DNA of 64,000 nt from Bacteroidota bacterium. GTDB lineage: Bacteria; Bacteroidota; JABWAT01. The position numbers were made by a program, and so were the translations under genes. The stretch is from assembly GCA_023151185.1 (NCBI GenBank), contig JAKLJL010000002.1, forward strand, positions 62,001 to 126,000. The letters are read 5' to 3'. The notes under the pieces are model-generated. The model was not told where the DNA came from and ran no database searches. It worked only from the letters and a program-made list of their open reading frames with translations. Shown one piece after another: positions 18,174 through 27,008 of this stretch (position 1 is its first letter; each line of letters opens with the position of its first letter).

Positions 18174-18764
18174 TTATGCTTTTGCTTTGTTTAGGTCAAG
18201 AATTCTTGTTTTGTGAAACCCAAGTTCAGAAGTCAACTTATTCAGACGGTCCAGAATGGCAGTCCGGGCCTGATAGTCAGCACCCGAAATAAATTTCCAT
18301 CCCTTAACTCTGGCGTCTTCCTCCTGAATTCCGGTCTGCTTCACTAGGGTCCACAGTTCACTCGACGGAACCGGATACAGACTGGAATGATTTTGACCTG
18401 TTCTTTCTGTCCAGATTATGATATCGGGATGAACCGGTTCAGTTACCCGGGTTTGAAGCGGAAAAAGCCGGCTCAGATCTGGACGGATAACGAGTTGGTT
18501 GTCTTCCTTCCTGACTTCACTTTCCTGGCTTTTGGAATTGACCACCTGAAAAATAGTAGGGTATCTCAGAGTGAAATCCACAGGGTGCGGTCCTGAAACC
18601 GCCATCCGGTTTGAACTGAACGAACAGTCAACTGACCCATCTGCAATCCAGTCTGCGCCGAAGGAAATTAACTGAAATGCCAGCGAACTCTTTCCTGAGC
18701 CGGAGTTACCTAAAATTAAAATTCCGACTGAATTTAGCCGGACTGCCGACCCGTTCACTTTCAT
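18174..18764 (-). CDS. HprK-like P-loop kinase/phosphorylase domain protein
   Basis: 196 residues. A Walker A motif GNSGSGKS at 19-26 is followed by a GADWIADG segment (35-42), the order seen in the C-terminal domain of HPr kinase/phosphorylase (P-loop, then ADD-type motif). The N-terminal HprK domain is missing and no HPr gene is present, so it is one of the stand-alone HprK-like proteins whose targets are unknown; some phosphorylate sugars or proteins. The rest of the protein is poorly conserved. It is the first gene of the minus-strand cluster with the HAD protein, deoC and the SPOR lipoprotein. Confidence 0.72.
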   Translation of the reverse strand: MKVNGSAVRLNSVGILILGNSGSGKSSLAFQLISFGADWIADGSVDCSFSSNRMAVSGPHPVDFTLRYPTIFQVVNSKSQESEVRKEDNQLVIRPDLSRLFPLQTRVTEPVHPDIIIWTERTGQNHSSLYPVPSSELWTLVKQTGIQEEDARVKGWKFISGADYQARTAILDRLNKLTSELGFHKTRILDLNKAKA

Positions 18765-18851: not shown

Positions 18852-20315
18852 ATGAAAGCAATTATGCCCGAAATCGATTTTTCACCTCAGGAAAAGCCAG
18901 TAAAAAAAGGAGATATCCTTCGTCTGATTATAGAATCGACGGGATTTGAAGGTAAAAGTATAGCCAGATACCGCGATTTTGTCATTTTCCTTCCCTTTGC
19001 AGCACCCGGTGATGAAGCTGAAGCCGAGATTACCCGTGTCAGATCCTCCTGGGCAGAAGGAAAAATACTCGCCCTGATTAAAAAGGGACCCGACCGGGTT
19101 GACCCGGTTTGCAGGCATTTCGGTGACTGTGGCGGGTGTAAATGGCAGGGATTATCCTATCCAGCCCAGCTCAGTGCCAAACATCAGCAGGTAACAGACG
19201 CCATTCAGCGTACCGGTGGATTTGAAAACCCGAATGTCCTCCCCATTCTTGGAACCCAGAATCCCTTTCATTACCGGAACAAAATGGATTTCACCTTTTC
19301 AGATTCTCCCTGGCTGACGAAAGAAGAACTTGCCTCCGGAGCACCGGATAGAAACACCTTTGCACTTGGATTGCATGTACCCGGCCGGTTCGATAAAGTG
19401 GTGGATTTGACGGAATGTCACATCCAGCAACCGGTTGGGAACACCATTTTAAATTTGGTCAGAAGGTTTTCTATTCAGCATCAGTATTTGCCATACAGCT
19501 CAAAAACCCACAGCGGTTTTTTACGAAACCTGATTATCCGTCATGGGGTTAATACCGGTGATTTAATGGTTATTCTGGTGACATTCAAAAAGGACGATCA
19601 ATTCAATCATGACCTGACCCAGGCATTTAAAAACCAGATTCCTGCCATAAAATCATTCATCAATGTACTGCATTCCGGAAAAGGTCCGGTTCCAAAAGGA
19701 GAAGGTGAATTTGTACTTTTCGGCTCATCCGTTTTAACAGAACAGTTGCTGGGAATTCAGTTTACAGTGCATCCTAACTCTTTTTTCCAGACGAATACGA
19801 AACAGGCTGAACGGTTATTTGAATCAGCCTTTTCGGCTGCGGGGCTATCTGATACAGATGTCCTGTATGACCTTTTCTGCGGACCTGGAACTATCGGACT
19901 TCTTGCGGCCAGGCGGGTGAAGCAGGTTGTGGGAATTGAACTGGTGCCCGAAGCAGTTGAAAATGCCCGGGAAAATGCCCGAAAGAACGGAATACAGAAT
20001 GCCGTTTTTTTTCAGGGGGATATGGGATCTGATCACGGACAGATCAAAACCTGGGAATTGACCTATGGAAAGCCGGATATTATTGTCGTGGATCCGCCAC
20101 GGGCCGGAATGACAGAGGAAACCTGCCGGTTCCTTCCTACCTTCGGAGCACCCAAAATTCTTTACATCTCCTGTAACCCGATGACCCTGGCCAGAGATTT
20201 AAAGATTCTTGCATCTTTTAATTATGAACTTTCGTATATTCAGCCGGTGGATATGTTCCCGCATACTTTCCATATTGAATGTATTGTTCTCCTTACCAAA
20301 AGGACCGGTTTATGA
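18852..20315 (+). CDS. rlmD: 23S rRNA (uracil-C5)-methyltransferase, RlmD/RumA family
   Basis: 487 residues. An N-terminal TRAM RNA-binding domain (about 15-80) is followed by the 4Fe-4S cysteines of RlmD: C87, C93, C96 and C189. The C-terminal AdoMet methyltransferase domain has DLFCGPGTIGL, a DPPRAGM motif and the catalytic cysteine in ISCNPMT. It methylates a conserved uracil in 23S rRNA (U1939 in E. coli; RlmCD-type enzymes also U747). The ATG at 18852 is used, with a second at 18864. Its stop overlaps the start of the barrel protein gene by four bases, an odd coupling of rRNA modification to envelope genes. Confidence 0.9.
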   Translation: MKAIMPEIDFSPQEKPVKKGDILRLIIESTGFEGKSIARYRDFVIFLPFAAPGDEAEAEITRVRSSWAEGKILALIKKGPDRVDPVCRHFGDCGGCKWQGLSYPAQLSAKHQQVTDAIQRTGGFENPNVLPILGTQNPFHYRNKMDFTFSDSPWLTKEELASGAPDRNTFALGLHVPGRFDKVVDLTECHIQQPVGNTILNLVRRFSIQHQYLPYSSKTHSGFLRNLIIRHGVNTGDLMVILVTFKKDDQFNHDLTQAFKNQIPAIKSFINVLHSGKGPVPKGEGEFVLFGSSVLTEQLLGIQFTVHPNSFFQTNTKQAERLFESAFSAAGLSDTDVLYDLFCGPGTIGLLAARRVKQVVGIELVPEAVENARENARKNGIQNAVFFQGDMGSDHGQIKTWELTYGKPDIIVVDPPRAGMTEETCRFLPTFGAPKILYISCNPMTLARDLKILASFNYELSYIQPVDMFPHTFHIECIVLLTKRTGL

Positions 20316-21091
20316 AAAAAAAATTGAACCTGTTTTCAGGCCTCGTTTTCTCGCTTGTTATTGTGCTGCCGCACCTTCTTACTGCCCAGTCTAAGGAAAA
20401 ACAAATGGGGTTGACCAAAGATAAACCTGTTTCAATGATCCTTTTTACCGGAATGGGGTATACCTTTTACAACATGAAATCTGAAACCAATCTGATTTCA
20501 AAGCTATCCGATACAGGCAAACTGGCGGATCTTGAAAAGCCGGGCGGAGGCATATCTACCAAAATCGGGTTGGGAGTTTTGGTGAGAGATCCGTTTCTGA
20601 GAGTTTATTCGGATATCCGGTGGGATAATTACGGCAACAGCGGCATAAAAATACCTTTGCTTTTTATTGATATTTTAGGGGATATCTTCGGCCGTAATGA
20701 GTATGATTTTAATCATGACATAATGACCATCGGGATACATGCCGACAAACTTTGGTGGCACGATGATGCCAGCCGTGATTTGTACTATGGCATCGGCGGA
20801 AATTACAGCTGGGTTCTGGACGAGCGGGAAGAAACAGTTTACCTGAGAAAAAACGGAGACGATTTTGAACTGAATGAGAAAACGGACATTTCGGCAACTA
20901 TCGCCGGGGTTCAGGCCATTATCGGCCGGTTTTACCCAAACGGCGTCACCTTTACAGAATTCACTCTGGGATATCAGTTTGATCTGGGGCATTCCATCGA
21001 GAAAAGCAAAAAACCCGGGCGCAGCACTGAAAGTCTGGATCCCGCTTATCAAAGCATCAAGCTTTCTGTACATATAGGATTAGCATTATGA
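20312..21091 (+). CDS. Secreted beta-barrel-like protein, copy 1 of a duplicated unit
   Basis: 259 residues from ATG 20312 (an upstream ATG at 20279 lies inside rlmD and would spoil the signal peptide). Residues 1-25 are a signal peptide with cleavage near LLTAQS. The mature part has alternating hydrophobic beta-strands, Gly/aromatic-rich turns and ends in a strand finishing IGLAL, as in outer-membrane beta-barrels whose last residue is hydrophobic. No family is recognised. It resembles the protein at 21394-22173 in size, N-terminal pattern (GxGxxxxNMK, then IS) and C-terminal strand, and is followed by a small lipoprotein with a four-base overlap. Confidence 0.75.
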   Translation: MKKKLNLFSGLVFSLVIVLPHLLTAQSKEKQMGLTKDKPVSMILFTGMGYTFYNMKSETNLISKLSDTGKLADLEKPGGGISTKIGLGVLVRDPFLRVYSDIRWDNYGNSGIKIPLLFIDILGDIFGRNEYDFNHDIMTIGIHADKLWWHDDASRDLYYGIGGNYSWVLDEREETVYLRKNGDDFELNEKTDISATIAGVQAIIGRFYPNGVTFTEFTLGYQFDLGHSIEKSKKPGRSTESLDPAYQSIKLSVHIGLAL

Positions 21092-21390
21092 AAACACTGA
21101 AACTCTGGATTGCCTTTTTCTTTTTGATTGGCTGTGATTCTGCCGAAACTTTTTCAGGTTCAGAGGAGGTCACCTTTTCGCCGGTTCCTTCAGGAAAACA
21201 CGCCATTGCTGAGGTAGAAAACACCTATGGCAGCATGGTCCGGTCAGATACACTATTTCCCGGAACAACCCGTTATACCTGGGACGGAAAAGATGAGTCC
21301 GGAATTGAGGTATCCAACGGACTATACATTTTGACCATTTCCCTGGATGGGAAAGAATTGGCAAGTACAGCCGCCATCATTAAAAGGTAA
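21088..21390 (+). CDS. Small lipoprotein with FlgD-like Ig fold, copy 1
   Basis: 100 residues. The signal peptide ends in LIGC (Cys16), giving a lipid-anchored protein. The mature part ends with a WDGKDESGIEVSNGLY-type pattern, the hallmark of FlgD-like immunoglobulin domains (W-D/N-G-x-D-x-x-G-x-x-x-x-x-G-x-Y). It overlaps the preceding barrel gene by four bases. It is clearly related to the lipoprotein at 22170-22487: both have an E-N-x-Y motif, then RSDTL, then the FlgD-like end. It probably partners the barrel protein at the outer membrane. Confidence 0.78.
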   Translation: MKTLKLWIAFFFLIGCDSAETFSGSEEVTFSPVPSGKHAIAEVENTYGSMVRSDTLFPGTTRYTWDGKDESGIEVSNGLYILTISLDGKELASTAAIIKR

Positions 21391-21393
21391 GCA

Positions 21394-22173
21394 ATGAAAT
21401 TTTATTGCCTATTAGCCTTTTTCATTCTTCAACCCCTTTGTTCAGGATATGCTCAGGAAACAGAAGCGGACACAGTCACTTCCACATCGACTGTTTTTTA
21501 CCGGCCAGCCAAAATACCAAGAGAATGGATTTTTACTCCTTACTTTGGAGTTGGAATAAACGGATTTAATATGAAAAAGGAGGAAGACCGGATTTCCCGT
21601 GTCGAGAGTTTCAATTCCGACAAAAAAATTGATGGTTTTGGACCCTCCTGGGCAATCAAGGGTGGAATTGGAATTTTTAATCCCAACACTTCCATGCGAA
21701 TCCTCTTTGATTTTGATTACAGTGAATACACAAACAAAAGACTCGACTACAAGGAAACATCGCCTCCGTATGAAATAACACATGAATTATATCTTTATCA
21801 GATCAGTACTGAAAAGATTTTTGAAAACCCTGCACACAGATTGACAGACTGGGGTACCTACTTTGGGCTTGGTGGTGGATTTATACTTGCAAAAGATAAC
21901 CGGCTGTCCCAACTGAATTTCAAATTCAACTCGGGGCCAATTCAATATTTAACAAATCGTTTTTCTTCTACAGCCTATCTGGGGGTTGTTACGGTTAGTT
22001 TCGGTAGTTTTTCCAGAAAGGAAAGTCCGATGTTTGCGGAAATAAGGGGTTCCTGGCAATATACGTTCAGTTCTGATGTTCAGGCCCATGCAAAACCGGG
22101 ATTCGATCCGTCTGATTATTCACCGGAACTGAATGCATTAAGGTTATCAATTCTTTTTGGGTTAGTATTATGA
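21394..22173 (+). CDS. Secreted beta-barrel-like protein, copy 2 of a duplicated unit
   Basis: 259 residues, the same length as the protein at 20312. Residues 1-20 are a signal peptide (cleavage after SGYAQ-like residues). The mature protein has repeated beta-strand patterns with Gly and aromatics and ends in a strand finishing FGLVL. A GFNMKKEEDRIS stretch near residue 60 matches YNMKSETNLIS in copy 1, showing common descent although overall identity looks low. It starts three bases after the first lipoprotein and overlaps the second by four bases. Confidence 0.75.
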   Translation: MKFYCLLAFFILQPLCSGYAQETEADTVTSTSTVFYRPAKIPREWIFTPYFGVGINGFNMKKEEDRISRVESFNSDKKIDGFGPSWAIKGGIGIFNPNTSMRILFDFDYSEYTNKRLDYKETSPPYEITHELYLYQISTEKIFENPAHRLTDWGTYFGLGGGFILAKDNRLSQLNFKFNSGPIQYLTNRFSSTAYLGVVTVSFGSFSRKESPMFAEIRGSWQYTFSSDVQAHAKPGFDPSDYSPELNALRLSILFGLVL

Positions 22174-22487
22174 AACGGATTTTCATTCTGGTTCAGATTC
22201 TTTTTCTGTCTGGCTGCTATACCGAAGATTTTGTTGTCCTGGATGAAAGTATTCCCCTTCTGGCTACCCAGTCTACTGAAACGGTTATTGCCAGAATTGA
22301 AAATGAATACCTAACCGTTATCCGGTCAGATACTCTTTCTGAAGGTGCAAAATACAATCAGAGTTATGTCTGGGATTTCAAGGATAATGATGGTGTCACG
22401 GCAGTCAATGGAATGTACTACATAACGATCAATGCATTTCCCGGTGGCCGTGAAATCGGCAGAGGTATGGTTGTGATCAACAGGTAA
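22170..22487 (+). CDS. Small lipoprotein with FlgD-like Ig fold, copy 2
   Basis: 105 residues with a signal peptide ending LSGC (Cys16). It shares with the lipoprotein at 21088 the sequence order IENEY, RSDTL and a FlgD-like end (YVWDFKDNDGVTAVNGMYY). It ends the four-gene unit barrel-lipoprotein-barrel-lipoprotein, and its stop is one base from the convergent glgX stop, with no visible terminator. Confidence 0.78.
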   Translation: MKRIFILVQILFLSGCYTEDFVVLDESIPLLATQSTETVIARIENEYLTVIRSDTLSEGAKYNQSYVWDFKDNDGVTAVNGMYYITINAFPGGREIGRGMVVINR

Positions 22488-22488
22488 C

Positions 22489-24582
22489 TTACTTCCCGAT
22501 CAGAATGACACAGGAACGGGCCTTAGCCTCATAATTTTCCTGGTTATACAGCAGAATTTCCTTTCCCTCATCCGAAATATCAAACGGCGATGGCAGATGA
22601 GTATCCAGAAACAGGTACCACTCCTTCCCAACCAGCCTGGGCAATTCAAAAGAGTGATTTTCCCAGTGGGCATTCAGAATGACCTGAAGGTGCTTTACAC
22701 CCGTCATTTCAGGAAATCTGGAGGAAGAAATATGAACAGAAATCCATCTTGCAGAGTCTGACCAGTCCGGTTCAAAAAGCTTAAAACCATGCCAGGTCAG
22801 GTCAAACTCACTGAATTTTTCTCTTTTTAAAATCGGATTGGCTTTTCTGAACGCAATGAGGCGTTTGAAAAACCGGAAAATTTCTGAATTCCGGTTTAAA
22901 AGCTGCCAGTTTAACCAGGAGATTTCATTGTCATGGCAATAAGCATTGTTATTTCCCTGCTGGGTCCTGCCCATTTCATCACCCGAAAGAATCATCGGGA
23001 CGCCAAATGAAGACAGAAGAATGGCTGCGAAATTCTTTACCTGCCTGATCCTGAGCTGAGTGATTTCTTCTGAATCAGTCGGGCCTTCTGCACCGCAATT
23101 CCAGCTAAAGTTATCATTTGAGCCGTCTGCCTGGTTTTCTCCGTTTGCTTCATTATGCTTTTCATTGAATGAAACCAGGTCCATCAGCGTAAATCCGTCA
23201 TGACAGGTCACAAAATTGATGCTGTCGTAGGGGGCCCTGCCAGAATGTTCATACAGATCAGCACTGCCGGTTATTCTTCTGGAAATGATACCAGCCATAC
23301 CGGGATCCCCTTTGACGAATTTTCTGACATCATCCCGGAACTTCCCGTTCCATTCAGCCCAGCGTTGCCAATGCGGAAAGGATCCAACCTGATACAGTCC
23401 GGCTGCATCCCAGGCTTCAGCAATGATTTTTGTTTTCGAAAGTACCGGGTCTGCTGCGATACGTTCAAGCAAAGGTGGGTTATTGAGTACCGTTCCATCC
23501 TGATCACGCCCCAAAATACTGGCCAGGTCAAACCGGAATCCGTCAACCCGCATTTCGGTTACCCAGTATTTAAGGCAGTCTATGATAAAATCACGGACAA
23601 ACGGATGGTTGCAGTTTAATGTATTGCCGCAACCGGAATAATTGTGATATTTGCCGGTGACCTGGTCTATTATATAATAAGTCTGGTTATCAATCCCTCT
23701 GAAGCTGAGGGACTCGCCGTATTCATTTCCTTCGGCTGTGTGATTAAAGACAACATCCAGAATGACTTCAATTCCAGCCTTATGAAATGCTTTAACCATT
23801 TCCTTGAATTCAGTTACCTGCCCGCCGTTTGCTCCTGAGGCGGCATAAGAAGCCTTGGGTGCAAAAAAGGAAATCGGGTTATATCCCCAAAAATTCATCA
23901 GCGGTTGTCCGGTAACCGGGTTGCGGCGATCTGATCCTTCCATTTCCTCAAATTCATTCACGGGTAAAAGCTCAACAGCCGTGATTCCGAGGTCTTTCAG
24001 GTAGGGGATTTTTTGAATCATACCCTTAAATGTACCCCGGTTGGTTACCCTGGATGACGGATGTGCAGTAAACCCCCGGAGGTGAACTTCATAAATAACT
24101 GAATCAACAAGCGGAATATTCAGCGGTTTGTCGTTTTTCCAGTCAAATTCATCATCCACAATTAACGAATACCTGTCTTTGTGGGGATACCGGTTCCAGA
24201 CATGTCCGCCAGACAAAGCCTTTGCATAAGGATCAATCAGAATATTTTCGGGGTCATACCGGTGAATATGGGGTCTGATATTTGGATTTCTGTCAATCCT
24301 CCAGCCGTAACAAACAGAGGGGTCCAGATCTTTTAAAAAGCAATGCCAGACGTCGCCGGTTTTATTGTCATCAGGTTCCAGCCTGAATTCATAAACTTCC
24401 ACGTTGGTAACCGGGTTGATTAAAACCAGACTGACATCTGTTGCATGGCGGGCATAAACCGAAAAATTAACGCCATCTCTGAATAAACTGGCACCAAACG
24501 GCAAGGGATGCCCACGGGTAAATTCATAGTCATCTCCAATAAAAGGCGGCGGAGATGAGGTTCTGGCGTTTCGTTTGCTCAT
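22489..24582 (-). CDS. glgX: Glycogen debranching enzyme (isoamylase type)
   Basis: 697 residues, GH13 subfamily of GlgX/TreX. An N-terminal CBM48-type beta-sandwich (about 25-130) precedes the (beta/alpha)8 barrel with the catalytic nucleophile in DGFRFDLAS, acid/base Glu in IIAEAWDAAG and the third acid in TCHDGFTL. The C-terminal beta domain completes it. It hydrolyses alpha-1,6 branches of glycogen. No other glycogen gene is nearby. Its start lies 86 bases from the divergent protease start. Confidence 0.93.
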   Translation of the reverse strand: MSKRNARTSSPPPFIGDDYEFTRGHPLPFGASLFRDGVNFSVYARHATDVSLVLINPVTNVEVYEFRLEPDDNKTGDVWHCFLKDLDPSVCYGWRIDRNPNIRPHIHRYDPENILIDPYAKALSGGHVWNRYPHKDRYSLIVDDEFDWKNDKPLNIPLVDSVIYEVHLRGFTAHPSSRVTNRGTFKGMIQKIPYLKDLGITAVELLPVNEFEEMEGSDRRNPVTGQPLMNFWGYNPISFFAPKASYAASGANGGQVTEFKEMVKAFHKAGIEVILDVVFNHTAEGNEYGESLSFRGIDNQTYYIIDQVTGKYHNYSGCGNTLNCNHPFVRDFIIDCLKYWVTEMRVDGFRFDLASILGRDQDGTVLNNPPLLERIAADPVLSKTKIIAEAWDAAGLYQVGSFPHWQRWAEWNGKFRDDVRKFVKGDPGMAGIISRRITGSADLYEHSGRAPYDSINFVTCHDGFTLMDLVSFNEKHNEANGENQADGSNDNFSWNCGAEGPTDSEEITQLRIRQVKNFAAILLSSFGVPMILSGDEMGRTQQGNNNAYCHDNEISWLNWQLLNRNSEIFRFFKRLIAFRKANPILKREKFSEFDLTWHGFKLFEPDWSDSARWISVHISSSRFPEMTGVKHLQVILNAHWENHSFELPRLVGKEWYLFLDTHLPSPFDISDEGKEILLYNQENYEAKARSCVILIGK

Positions 24583-24668
24583 GAGTTCAATTTAAGGAAT
24601 CATGTGTCCTTTGGCAATTGAATCCGGCAGACTCTGGGAAAATTCATTCGTTTTTCTCATATTCCGCC

Positions 24669-27008
24669 ATGAAAAAAACACTTTTTCTGCTGATGTCTTC
24701 CCTGTTCATTTCGGAGTGCCTGTCACAGGTTATGCTCAGCCCGGATCTGAAAAAATTTCTTTTTCTCAACCGGCCCCGTTTTTTAAAGATGCAGGAACCT
24801 GAAAAGGTCCAGGTTGTTCTGCATCCCGGAACACCAGACTGGAATACTGAAAGTCTTTCCGCCGAACTAAACTCACTTGATGGTTTTGTTGAAACTGTAA
24901 TCGGGGATCTGATCACCATTTCAGTTCCGTTTGACCGGTTACCCCAGCTTGAGACACTTTCATTTAAAGGTTCTGCTTTCACCGGTCCGTCTGATGACCC
25001 GCTGCTTTCAACCAGTGTTTCCCAAAAGAAATCAGGCAGTACTTTTCTTGGAACCTGGGCAGATTCCCTTCATCAGGCTGGAATTACCGGAAAAGGGGTA
25101 ATTGTTGGGGTAATTGATGACGGCTTTACCGTTAACCACGGCGACTATAAACAGCCGGACGGCAAAACCAGGATTTTGGCAATCTGGAATCAGGGAACAA
25201 GCACGCCGTCAAGGTACCCGGTTTTTCCAACCTATTCCTATGGGACAGAGTGGTTTGCATCAGATCTGAATTCCGGACTGGTCACGGGAATACCGGCTTC
25301 ATCGCATGGAAGTTCCTGTCTTTCTATCGCCTGCGGAGATGGATCCCAGTCGGGGTTAAAAGGAATGGCCCCAGAGTCTGATATCATTCTTGTAATCAGA
25401 AAACCAGGGGCAACCATGGCCAATACCATCGATGCCTTTAACTATATCTGTAAAAAGGCAAAAGCTGTCGGGAAACCTGTCGTTGTCAGCTACAGTTTTG
25501 GAAGTCAGTTCGGTCCGCATGACGGAAGCAGGGCGAATGAAAAAGCAATTGATACTTTGTCAGGACCGGGAAGTCTTTTCAGTCTTGCAGCGGGAAACAG
25601 CGGCGGGCAGATGATTTACGTTTCCGGCCAACTTCCTGCCCAGAATGCTGCCGATACCATTCGGTTTTCGATAACCTCCAACCCGGGATCCGCCAACCAA
25701 AGTTTTTCAAATAATCTTTGGTATCCGGTTCAGGACAGTCTGGATCTGAAGCTGATTGGCCCTTCGGGAACTGTTTATGGTCCTTTTAAACTCAGAACCG
25801 GGTTTGATACCCTGTCAACCTCTGAAGGATTTCTTTATGCAGGAAATAACACTGATCCTGTCAGTCAGAGGAATGTAATCGATTGGGAACTGATCAATTA
25901 CAACAACCGGAAAGTTAAAACCGGTAACTGGAAGGCAGTTCTGATTTCCAGGTACCAGGTTTCGGGCAGTAAATTTGATAACTGGGTTTATGCCTCCACC
26001 GTATCCGGAACGTACTCTGATCATGTTTCCTCCCAAAAAGTGATCACACTTCCGGGGACGTCCATTCAGGCTGTTACCTCGGGTGCTTATGACAAGTCAT
26101 CCGGAAGCAGGCTTTCCAATTCCAGCACAGGACCAACCCGGGACGGGCGGATTAAACCAGAAATTTGTGCTCCATCCAATGTTTCAACAGCGGGCGGATC
26201 CCTTACCGGAACATCCGCGGCAGCCCCACACACTGCCGGAGCCCTTGCTTTACTGCTTCAGCTTGCTCCTGACCTGACACCGTCTCAGGCAAAAACCAGA
26301 CTTCAGCAGGGTGCCTCAACAGATTCTCAGACCGGGATTGTGCCTGGAAATTCCTGGGGATACGGAAAGTTAAATGCCTTCAGGGCTGCGGAGCCCTTTT
26401 TGCAGCCTGATGTTCCGCTTCCGGTTAAAATTACGTCCTTCTCAGGAAAAACAACCGGCGGTCAGTTACTGCTTTCCTGGACAACCCTGGATGAAACGGG
26501 TTTGTCCGGGTACATTTTGTTGGCCCAACAGGAGACGGGCACCTGGAGTCCGGTTGCAGACTGGAAATGGAATGAAGGCCTTCGGGCCAAAGGCGGGCAA
26601 AAAAACAGTTACTCCTGGCTGGTTTCACTCCCTGTTAAAAAAACATTTTTCAGGCTGGATTCCCAAACCCCCGACGGGAAGATTTTACCCGGGCCTTCGA
26701 CCTTTTTCACACCCGGACCAGAAACAGTCTGGGAGGCACCTGAAGCTTTTTCTGTCTCTCCCTGTTATCCCAATCCTGCCAATCCCGGCACCTCCATACG
26801 GGTTCACCTTCCGGCTCCAGGGCCCGTCCGGGTATCAGTTGTGACTCTTACCGGCCAGGTTCTTTCGGAAATTCTGTTTCCCGGCGTCCAAACCGGCGAT
26901 GAACTTTTTCTGAAACCGGAAATCTTGCATGCAGCTTCAGGACTCTATTTACTTCGGGTTTTCTTTGGTGGGAGAGCCATCACTCAAAAACTGGTTATCC
27001 TGAACTGA
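24669..27008 (+). CDS. Secreted subtilisin-family (S8) protease with T9SS-like sorting domain
   Basis: 779 residues from ATG 24669, which begins a normal signal peptide (MKKTLFLLM...); an ATG at 24618 would put 17 polar residues before it. The S8 catalytic triad is complete: D150 (VIDDG), H213 (SSHGSS) and S516 (GTSAAAP), with oxyanion Asn310. After the catalytic domain comes a fibronectin-like segment, then a C-terminal ~80-residue domain (YPNPANPGTSI start, GLYLL, ending KLVILN) of the type A sorting family that directs proteins through the type IX secretion system. The protein is probably released or attached at the cell surface, degrading external protein. Confidence 0.92.
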   Translation: MKKTLFLLMSSLFISECLSQVMLSPDLKKFLFLNRPRFLKMQEPEKVQVVLHPGTPDWNTESLSAELNSLDGFVETVIGDLITISVPFDRLPQLETLSFKGSAFTGPSDDPLLSTSVSQKKSGSTFLGTWADSLHQAGITGKGVIVGVIDDGFTVNHGDYKQPDGKTRILAIWNQGTSTPSRYPVFPTYSYGTEWFASDLNSGLVTGIPASSHGSSCLSIACGDGSQSGLKGMAPESDIILVIRKPGATMANTIDAFNYICKKAKAVGKPVVVSYSFGSQFGPHDGSRANEKAIDTLSGPGSLFSLAAGNSGGQMIYVSGQLPAQNAADTIRFSITSNPGSANQSFSNNLWYPVQDSLDLKLIGPSGTVYGPFKLRTGFDTLSTSEGFLYAGNNTDPVSQRNVIDWELINYNNRKVKTGNWKAVLISRYQVSGSKFDNWVYASTVSGTYSDHVSSQKVITLPGTSIQAVTSGAYDKSSGSRLSNSSTGPTRDGRIKPEICAPSNVSTAGGSLTGTSAAAPHTAGALALLLQLAPDLTPSQAKTRLQQGASTDSQTGIVPGNSWGYGKLNAFRAAEPFLQPDVPLPVKITSFSGKTTGGQLLLSWTTLDETGLSGYILLAQQETGTWSPVADWKWNEGLRAKGGQKNSYSWLVSLPVKKTFFRLDSQTPDGKILPGPSTFFTPGPETVWEAPEAFSVSPCYPNPANPGTSIRVHLPAPGPVRVSVVTLTGQVLSEILFPGVQTGDELFLKPEILHAASGLYLLRVFFGGRAITQKLVILN

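Follow-up and report, generated by a model that had tools for sequence, protein, structure and literature searches.

Barrel-lipoprotein complexes have been called ubiquitous in Bacteroidota, with the barrel as a putative anchor or secretion partner, and the matching of lipoproteins to barrels in this phylum has been called completely unclear (PMC12578637). The same source describes Bt1926 as a predicted eight-stranded barrel that occurs with the S-layer lipoprotein Bt1927. In the type IX secretion system (T9SS), loops of PorV are described as wrapping around the C-terminal domain (CTD), and type A CTDs as carrying, near their C-terminal end, a near-invariant lysine that is important for function (PMC10994853). 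Here we analyze a 64,000-nucleotide stretch of contig JAKLJL010000002.1 from a Bacteroidota bacterium (hereafter the window), in which four adjoining plus-strand open reading frames (ORFs; 20312-22487) encode barrels and lipoproteins in the order B1-l1-B2-l2. Judged by sequence profiles, these are barrel-lipoprotein pairs whose lipoprotein is a retired T9SS signal domain. We interpret the locus as a self-contained module of two outer-membrane proteins, present in two paralogous copies, in which a CTD-type lipoprotein domain would dock on its own barrel, a reading to which we assign a probability of roughly 0.6.

The duplicated barrel-lipoprotein unit of the original prediction was confirmed, on stronger evidence than first stated. 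The gene order and sizes (259, 100, 259, and 105 amino acids, aa), the junctions (a 4-base overlap of B1 with l1, a 3-base gap between l1 and B2, and a 4-base overlap of B2 with l2) and the motifs EN-x-Y, RSDTL, and the NMK stretch are all as it had described them. Both genes are included in the duplication: pairwise, B1 and B2 share 21% identity (E = 1e-11) and l1 and l2 share 32% (E = 9e-19), while profile-profile comparison of the four B1-type with the two B2-type barrels known from the class gave 99.2% (E = 1.9e-19, 212 columns), so that homology between the copies is readily detected. By eye, B1 and B2 both start with Sec-type signal peptides and all six barrels of the window's class have a glutamine at the likely cleavage site. 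The Bacteroidetes Q-rule predicts glutamine at this position (PMC5837995).

The proposed barrel fold was also borne out for B1, for which we built an AlphaFold2 model on a six-sequence alignment; the assignment of B2 relies on its full-length profile homology to B1. The B1 model has eight strands (mean predicted local distance difference test score, pLDDT, 75.6; predicted template modeling score, pTM, 0.71). Its top Foldseek match is OmpA (E = 1.7e-7), and VIA-align returned NspA with a Z score of 16.4 (154 residues, 2.9 A), OmpA with 15.6-16.3 and OmpW with about 14. B1 is thus predicted to be an eight-stranded OmpA/NspA-like barrel. The N terminus of outer-membrane barrels is periplasmic, and with this assumed for B1 the modeled loops L1, L2, and L4 would be long and external and the turns short. 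Residues invariant in all six barrels are mainly strand glycines and polar residues, together with G182, G236, and P244 in the predicted external loops. No Pfam family was matched by the window barrels, and neither PF13505 (OMP_b-brl) nor PorP_SprF was found in any of the six. Neither B2 nor the barrel profile gave a meaningful match when searched against the sequences of solved structures, and a scan of the whole genome collection with B2 as the sole query produced 106 pattern matches but no relative.

The lipoproteins are where the T9SS enters. AlphaFold2 models the mature lipoprotein as a single domain (mean pLDDT 85), separated from the lipid cysteine by about ten residues in both l1 and l2. 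All six lipoproteins of the class have a lipobox, and they contain neither a plain Sec signal peptide nor a cargo domain. The FlgD-like end claimed by the original prediction holds at the level of the family, since Pfam FlgD_ig scores 27.8 bits in l1 (cut-off 27) and 23.1 bits, below the cut-off, in l2. The domain is nevertheless better placed with T9SS CTDs, which share the FlgD immunoglobulin-like (Ig) fold. We rejected a flagellar origin because the genome lacks the FlgD N-terminal domain: PF03963 had no match in it at E up to 0.001 and was found in 4 of 14 control genomes. FlgD_ig itself is matched 41 times in the genome; of the 30 matches examined, which include that of l1, the other 29 all end 10-21 residues ahead of the stop codon, as T9SS CTDs do.

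A profile of 26 CTDs from the same genome, which may lean toward FlgD_ig as its members were found through that family, recovers all six lipoproteins (E = 6.8e-9, 9e-8, 5.2e-7, 2.7e-5, 5.6e-4, and 1.5e-3), whereas E was no better than 0.99 among 300 shuffles and 1.6 for the top-scoring unrelated frame of the window. Profile-profile comparison of the lipoproteins with the CTDs gave 97.1% (E = 7e-11), against 0.1% for the reversed control. By profile, then, the lipoprotein domain is best placed among the T9SS CTDs, from which it also differs in consistent ways. A basic residue near the C-terminal end is present in 23 of the 26 CTDs and in none of the six lipoproteins, and the same holds for an NPF/PNP start (20/26 versus 0/6). 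Conversely, the pattern N-x-[YF]-x-[TS] occurs in none of the CTDs but in all 20 intact lipoproteins that we recovered (six in the window's class and 14 in another class, described below). We infer that the lost basic column corresponds to the lysine of type A CTDs in the account of PMC10994853.

Could the lipoprotein still be a working T9SS client, or a decoy, that enters the translocon or binds PorV, with the barrel as a dedicated shuttle or anchor like PorP/SprF? The CTD fold at the C-terminal end is in keeping with this, as is a genome that encodes SprA and about 130 TIGR04183 matches above the cut-off. In addition, type B CTD proteins have been published as paired with cognate PorP/SprF barrels (PMC12618676, PMC9143113), and PorA, a CTD protein, has been reported as surface-located without the translocation machinery (PMC7712824). 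However, the lipoproteins have no cargo (removal of the domain leaves about ten residues), their signal peptides are not plain but have a lipobox, all six have lost the basic residue near the C-terminal end, and the barrel is predicted to have eight strands, whereas PorP is described as 14-stranded (PMC9143113). Given the missing cargo and the loss of the basic residue and of NPF/PNP, use of the lipoprotein as a secretion signal is unlikely, and the client explanation as a whole seems to us unlikely too. Separately, contig C26 of this genome has identical T9SS C-terminal ends at 307-501 and 152757-152951, 152 kb apart, possibly a repeat or the overlap of a circular contig.

Support for the proposed pairing comes from a second Bacteroidota class. 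A scan of 394 genomes of the phylum with the lipoprotein profile (at most 12 candidates scored per genome, E up to 3e-6) gave 53 matches, among which the frames shorter than 130 aa were the six known lipoproteins and two new ones, in genomes G262 and G115. Each of the new proteins is a lipoprotein whose gene overlaps a signal-peptide barrel gene of 217-223 aa, and the two barrels are homologous to each other (E = 5e-21). Used as a query, this barrel pair found matches in 14 of 391 genomes of the class of G262, and the lipoprotein adjoins the barrel at all 15 loci, 14 with an intact lipobox lipoprotein and one (G600) with both genes broken. Because two of the lipoproteins were in the search profile, the independent count of pairing is 12 of 13 for intact loci and 13 of 13 with the broken one. 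G262 has a second, diverged lipoprotein-barrel pair (L091, contig C121) beside the first (L078), so that the window's genus is not alone in having two pairs. One barrel of this class, P0015, scores 28.0 bits with OMP_b-brl (cut-off 28.7). In G131, G262, and G115, short proteins (154-169 aa) that end in a CTD-like domain have an ordinary NPFN-type CTD, and the ends of short CTD-like proteins in G033 and G050 also look like ordinary T9SS ends; none of these was counted as a lipoprotein.

These loci bear on a simpler explanation, namely that an ordinary OmpA-like barrel and an ordinary Ig lipoprotein, both small envelope proteins, have nothing to do with each other beyond a common operon. In the window's class the unit always sits at a fixed site behind an rlmD-like gene (4/4 genomes), where co-transcription alone could explain the pairing. 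In the other class, however, the two genes are adjacent at 15 of 15 loci amid flanking ORFs that, by eye, differ from locus to locus (except in two genomes of one genus). The genes are also duplicated jointly in the window's genus and interrupted jointly in G600 (L082, about 1150-2300), although the latter may reflect decay or an assembly or sequencing error. Furthermore, barrel and lipoprotein distances over the 14 intact pairs are correlated (r = 0.66, a value reached by none of 2,000 permutations). The pairing is thus supported by the constant adjacency of the two genes, by their duplication and breakage together and by the correlation of distances, and we consider mere operon sharing quite unlikely.

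The pairs of the two classes are linked by profile comparison. The lipoprotein profiles match at 97.9% (E = 4.6e-13), and both also match CTDs. For the barrels, with 14 sequences from the other class in the profile, the comparison gave 69% (E = 4.4e-5); the 185 matched columns begin at the first strand and extend almost to the end, and reversed controls reached 0.3-0.4%. With smaller profiles the values fall to 4.7% (the two-sequence profile) and 0.8% (four B1-type barrels against the two-sequence profile). Homology of the barrels, and with it a common origin followed by a change in gene order, is probable on these comparisons; the alternative is that the same two kinds of protein were paired independently, which would itself argue for a functional link.

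Within the window's class, the sample comprises four genomes: G000 (the window), G001, G002, and G003. Carriers include JAIUNL010000008.1 (Bacteroidetes bacterium isolate BAC1) and JAFLBE010000003.1 (UWPOB_BACT1), the latter reported from a photosynthetic nutrient-removal bioreactor and given there as Bacteroidota without class (PMC8103865). All four genomes have the barrel unit, always between the rlmD-like and a glgX-like gene, and among the 394 sampled genomes of the phylum full barrel matches are confined to these four; four partial matches to the barrel profile elsewhere in the phylum (E = 0.005-0.01) were discounted as chance, as they span 62-83 residues and three of them lie in frames of 442-916 aa. 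G000 and G002 have two units and G001 and G003 one, and in each of the six units barrel and lipoprotein genes overlap by 4 bases. In a tree of flanking proteins, G001 groups with G002, G000 joins next and G003 is outermost (100% support). The unit tree instead separates the unit-1 from the unit-2 sequences, with 100% support for the unit-2 clade. Set against the flanking tree, this separation places the duplication before the split of the genus, in line with the old duplication of the original prediction, and G001 most likely lost unit 2; in G001, the stop codons of the lipoprotein and glgX genes are only 27 bases apart. The one unit in G003 may either reflect the state before duplication or be orthologous to one of the two copies: its barrel is nearer to unit 1 by identity, its lipoprotein slightly nearer to unit 2, and the trees cannot be rooted. 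The G003 lipoprotein has a longer, charged C-terminal end, and its gene overlaps the end of the glgX-like gene, on the opposite strand, by 27 bases (L005, 1163-1189).

The units change quickly. Between G000 and G002, identity is 52% for B1, 51% for l1, 32% for B2, and 38% for l2, compared with 79% for six concatenated flanking proteins; by these values unit 2 evolves faster than unit 1 in both partners. One could ask whether the pair is an accessory device for surface recognition or immunity, acting as a target or shield with respect to bacteria or phages. Such a role, which concerns purpose and is compatible with docking, would account for the patchy occurrence in the other class (14/391 genomes), the fast change of the barrels relative to their flanks and the second copies in G262, G000, and G002. 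On the other hand, the unit is not patchy in the window's class, where all four genomes carry it, and inspection by eye of 1.5 kb on either side of the other-class loci revealed no weapon or defense gene (PADLOC was not searched). We regard this role as improbable.

Under the docking model that we prefer, each copy would consist of a Sec-exported eight-stranded barrel and a lipoprotein whose mature part is one Ig domain of the T9SS type A CTD fold. The lipoprotein may have arisen when a lipoprotein signal peptide captured a T9SS CTD, which would then have lost its secretion-signal features and acquired the N-x-[YF]-x-[TS] signature. The lipid would tether the domain at the outer membrane, where it may dock on the cognate barrel, most plausibly on the outer loops, by analogy with the grip of PorV loops on the CTD. 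The pair would work as one unit with no need of neighboring genes or of the T9SS, and the tandem copy in the genus would be a second pair whose partners diverged together. As a first guess at activity, the complex might provide structural anchoring at the surface; the rival roles would be those of a T9SS client or sensor and of an accessory recognition device.

Several observations count against this model. Conservation by barrel region has no outer-loop peak, with the two-residue L3 high, L1 and L4 similar to the strands, and L2 lowest. The structural matches of the lipoprotein model (PorU C-terminal region, Z = 7.9; FlgD, 7.9; PorZ C-terminal region, 6.8) lie within the range of many Ig and fibronectin type III (FN3) domains (Z = 6.2-7.9 over 50 listed rows, FN3 up to 7.5), and for this reason the T9SS link rests on sequence profiles; yet TIGR04183 itself does not find l1 or l2 in their own genome at E up to 1. 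An acidic surface-export signal (at least two acidic residues within six after the cysteine, counted as in PMC12578637 and first described in PMC5080379) is present in four of the six lipoproteins of the window's class but in two of the 14 in the other; PF07980 (SusD-like lipoproteins), sought to calibrate this signal, had no match in the genome. The gene order is reversed in 13 of the 14 intact other-class pairs, with the lipoprotein first (readable with 1- or 4-base overlaps, those of L083 and L088 depending on the start chosen), and the barrel is first in G652. The link between the barrels of the two classes is weak at 69% (E = 4.4e-5), and plain hidden Markov model searches between them do no better than shuffles. 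The distance correlation may merely reflect shared descent, and docking itself is drawn from genes, profiles, and single-protein models.

The features of the locus are collected in Table 1. B1 and the upstream methyltransferase gene share 4 bases at the methyltransferase stop. Just downstream of the glgX-like gene, a plus-strand gene (24618-27008) encodes a subtilisin-like S8 peptidase with a T9SS CTD of its own (TIGR04183 40.8 bits, above the cut-off; contig 88766-88999, corresponding to window 26766-26999); it is also present in G001 and G002 and was not found in the stretch of G003 searched. Upstream, on the minus strand (18174-18764), lies a fast-changing 196-aa P-loop protein (23% to 48% identity among relatives) whose match to the HPr serine kinase C-terminal domain is limited to the first part (positions 8-60 of 171).

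Table 1. Features of the duplicated barrel-lipoprotein locus and its flanks, in window coordinates.
Feature	Coordinates	Strand	Description	Basis
rlmD/TrmA-like gene	18852..20315	+	RNA (uracil-5-)-methyltransferase, upstream flank, outside unit	Common to 4/4 class genomes
B1	20312..21091	+	259-aa predicted outer-membrane barrel, signal peptide, unit 1	AlphaFold2 eight-strand model; NspA/OmpA structural matches; orthologues in three other genomes
l1	21088..21390	+	100-aa lipoprotein, one CTD/FlgD-type Ig domain, unit 1	AlphaFold2, mean pLDDT 85
l1 lipobox Cys16 codon	21133..21135	+	Lipobox LIGC	Sequence
l1 N-x-[YF]-x-[TS] signature	21220..21234	+	NTYGS	Pattern absent from 26 same-genome T9SS CTDs
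B2	21394..22173	+	259-aa putative barrel, signal peptide, unit 2	Diverged B1 paralogue; orthologue in G002 (32% identity)
l2	22170..22487	+	105-aa lipoprotein, CTD-like Ig domain, unit 2	
l2 lipobox Cys16 codon	22215..22217	+	Lipobox LSGC	Sequence
l2 N-x-[YF]-x-[TS] signature	22302..22316	+	NEYLT	Pattern listing
glgX-like gene	22489..24582	-	Glycogen-debranching/isoamylase, downstream flank, tail to tail, outside unit	Common to 4/4 class genomes

Overall, the pair is probably an unrecognized two-part surface device. The titles and abstracts returned by our literature search, which did not extend to subscription papers, contained no CTD-like lipoprotein paired with a barrel, and we do not claim absence from print. 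A broader statement, for which the odds appear to us somewhat short of even, is that a T9SS signal domain, now held in place by a lipid anchor, has become the permanent partner of a small barrel dedicated to it, and that the two form an outer-membrane device that is independent of the T9SS, is patchy in at least two Bacteroidota classes and has no Pfam or NCBIfam family of its own. Should the pairing prove real, an export tag would turn out to have a second role as a protein-protein docking module, a small unnamed barrel would gain a defined partner, and the pair could serve as a minimal system for how Bacteroidota match lipoproteins to barrels. As the pair consists of only two short genes and has a clear signature, sequence searches can find it and direct tests are feasible.

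Among described systems, Bt1926/Bt1927 resembles the window pair in that a small barrel and a lipoprotein are encoded together (PMC12578637). Bt1927, however, is described as a 100-kDa S-layer protein, whereas the window lipoprotein consists of a single Ig domain, about 85 residues long (a distinction made on descriptions, not sequences), and the export signal is not consistent in window-type lipoproteins. FlgD, whose hook-capping Ig domain belongs to the same domain family and gives the best PDB sequence matches of the lipoprotein, differs in that no FlgD N-terminal domain was found in the genome. The small OmpA-like barrels (OMP_b-brl; NspA, OmpA, and OmpW folds) share the predicted eight-strand meander (Z = 14-16), but those of the window fall into no Pfam family and have a lipoprotein dedicated to them. 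Type B CTD proteins and PorP/SprF likewise link a CTD-like domain genetically to its own barrel; there the barrel is described as 14-stranded and its partner as a secreted cargo protein (PMC9143113), whereas here the barrel is predicted to have eight strands and the lipoprotein is free of cargo. Finally, T9SS type A CTDs (TIGR04183/Por_Secre_tail) have, by profile, the same Ig-type domain at the extreme C-terminal end, in a genome rich in CTDs; in contrast to these, the window lipoproteins lack cargo, the basic residue and NPF/PNP and have instead a lipid anchor and an N-x-[YF]-x-[TS] signature of their own.

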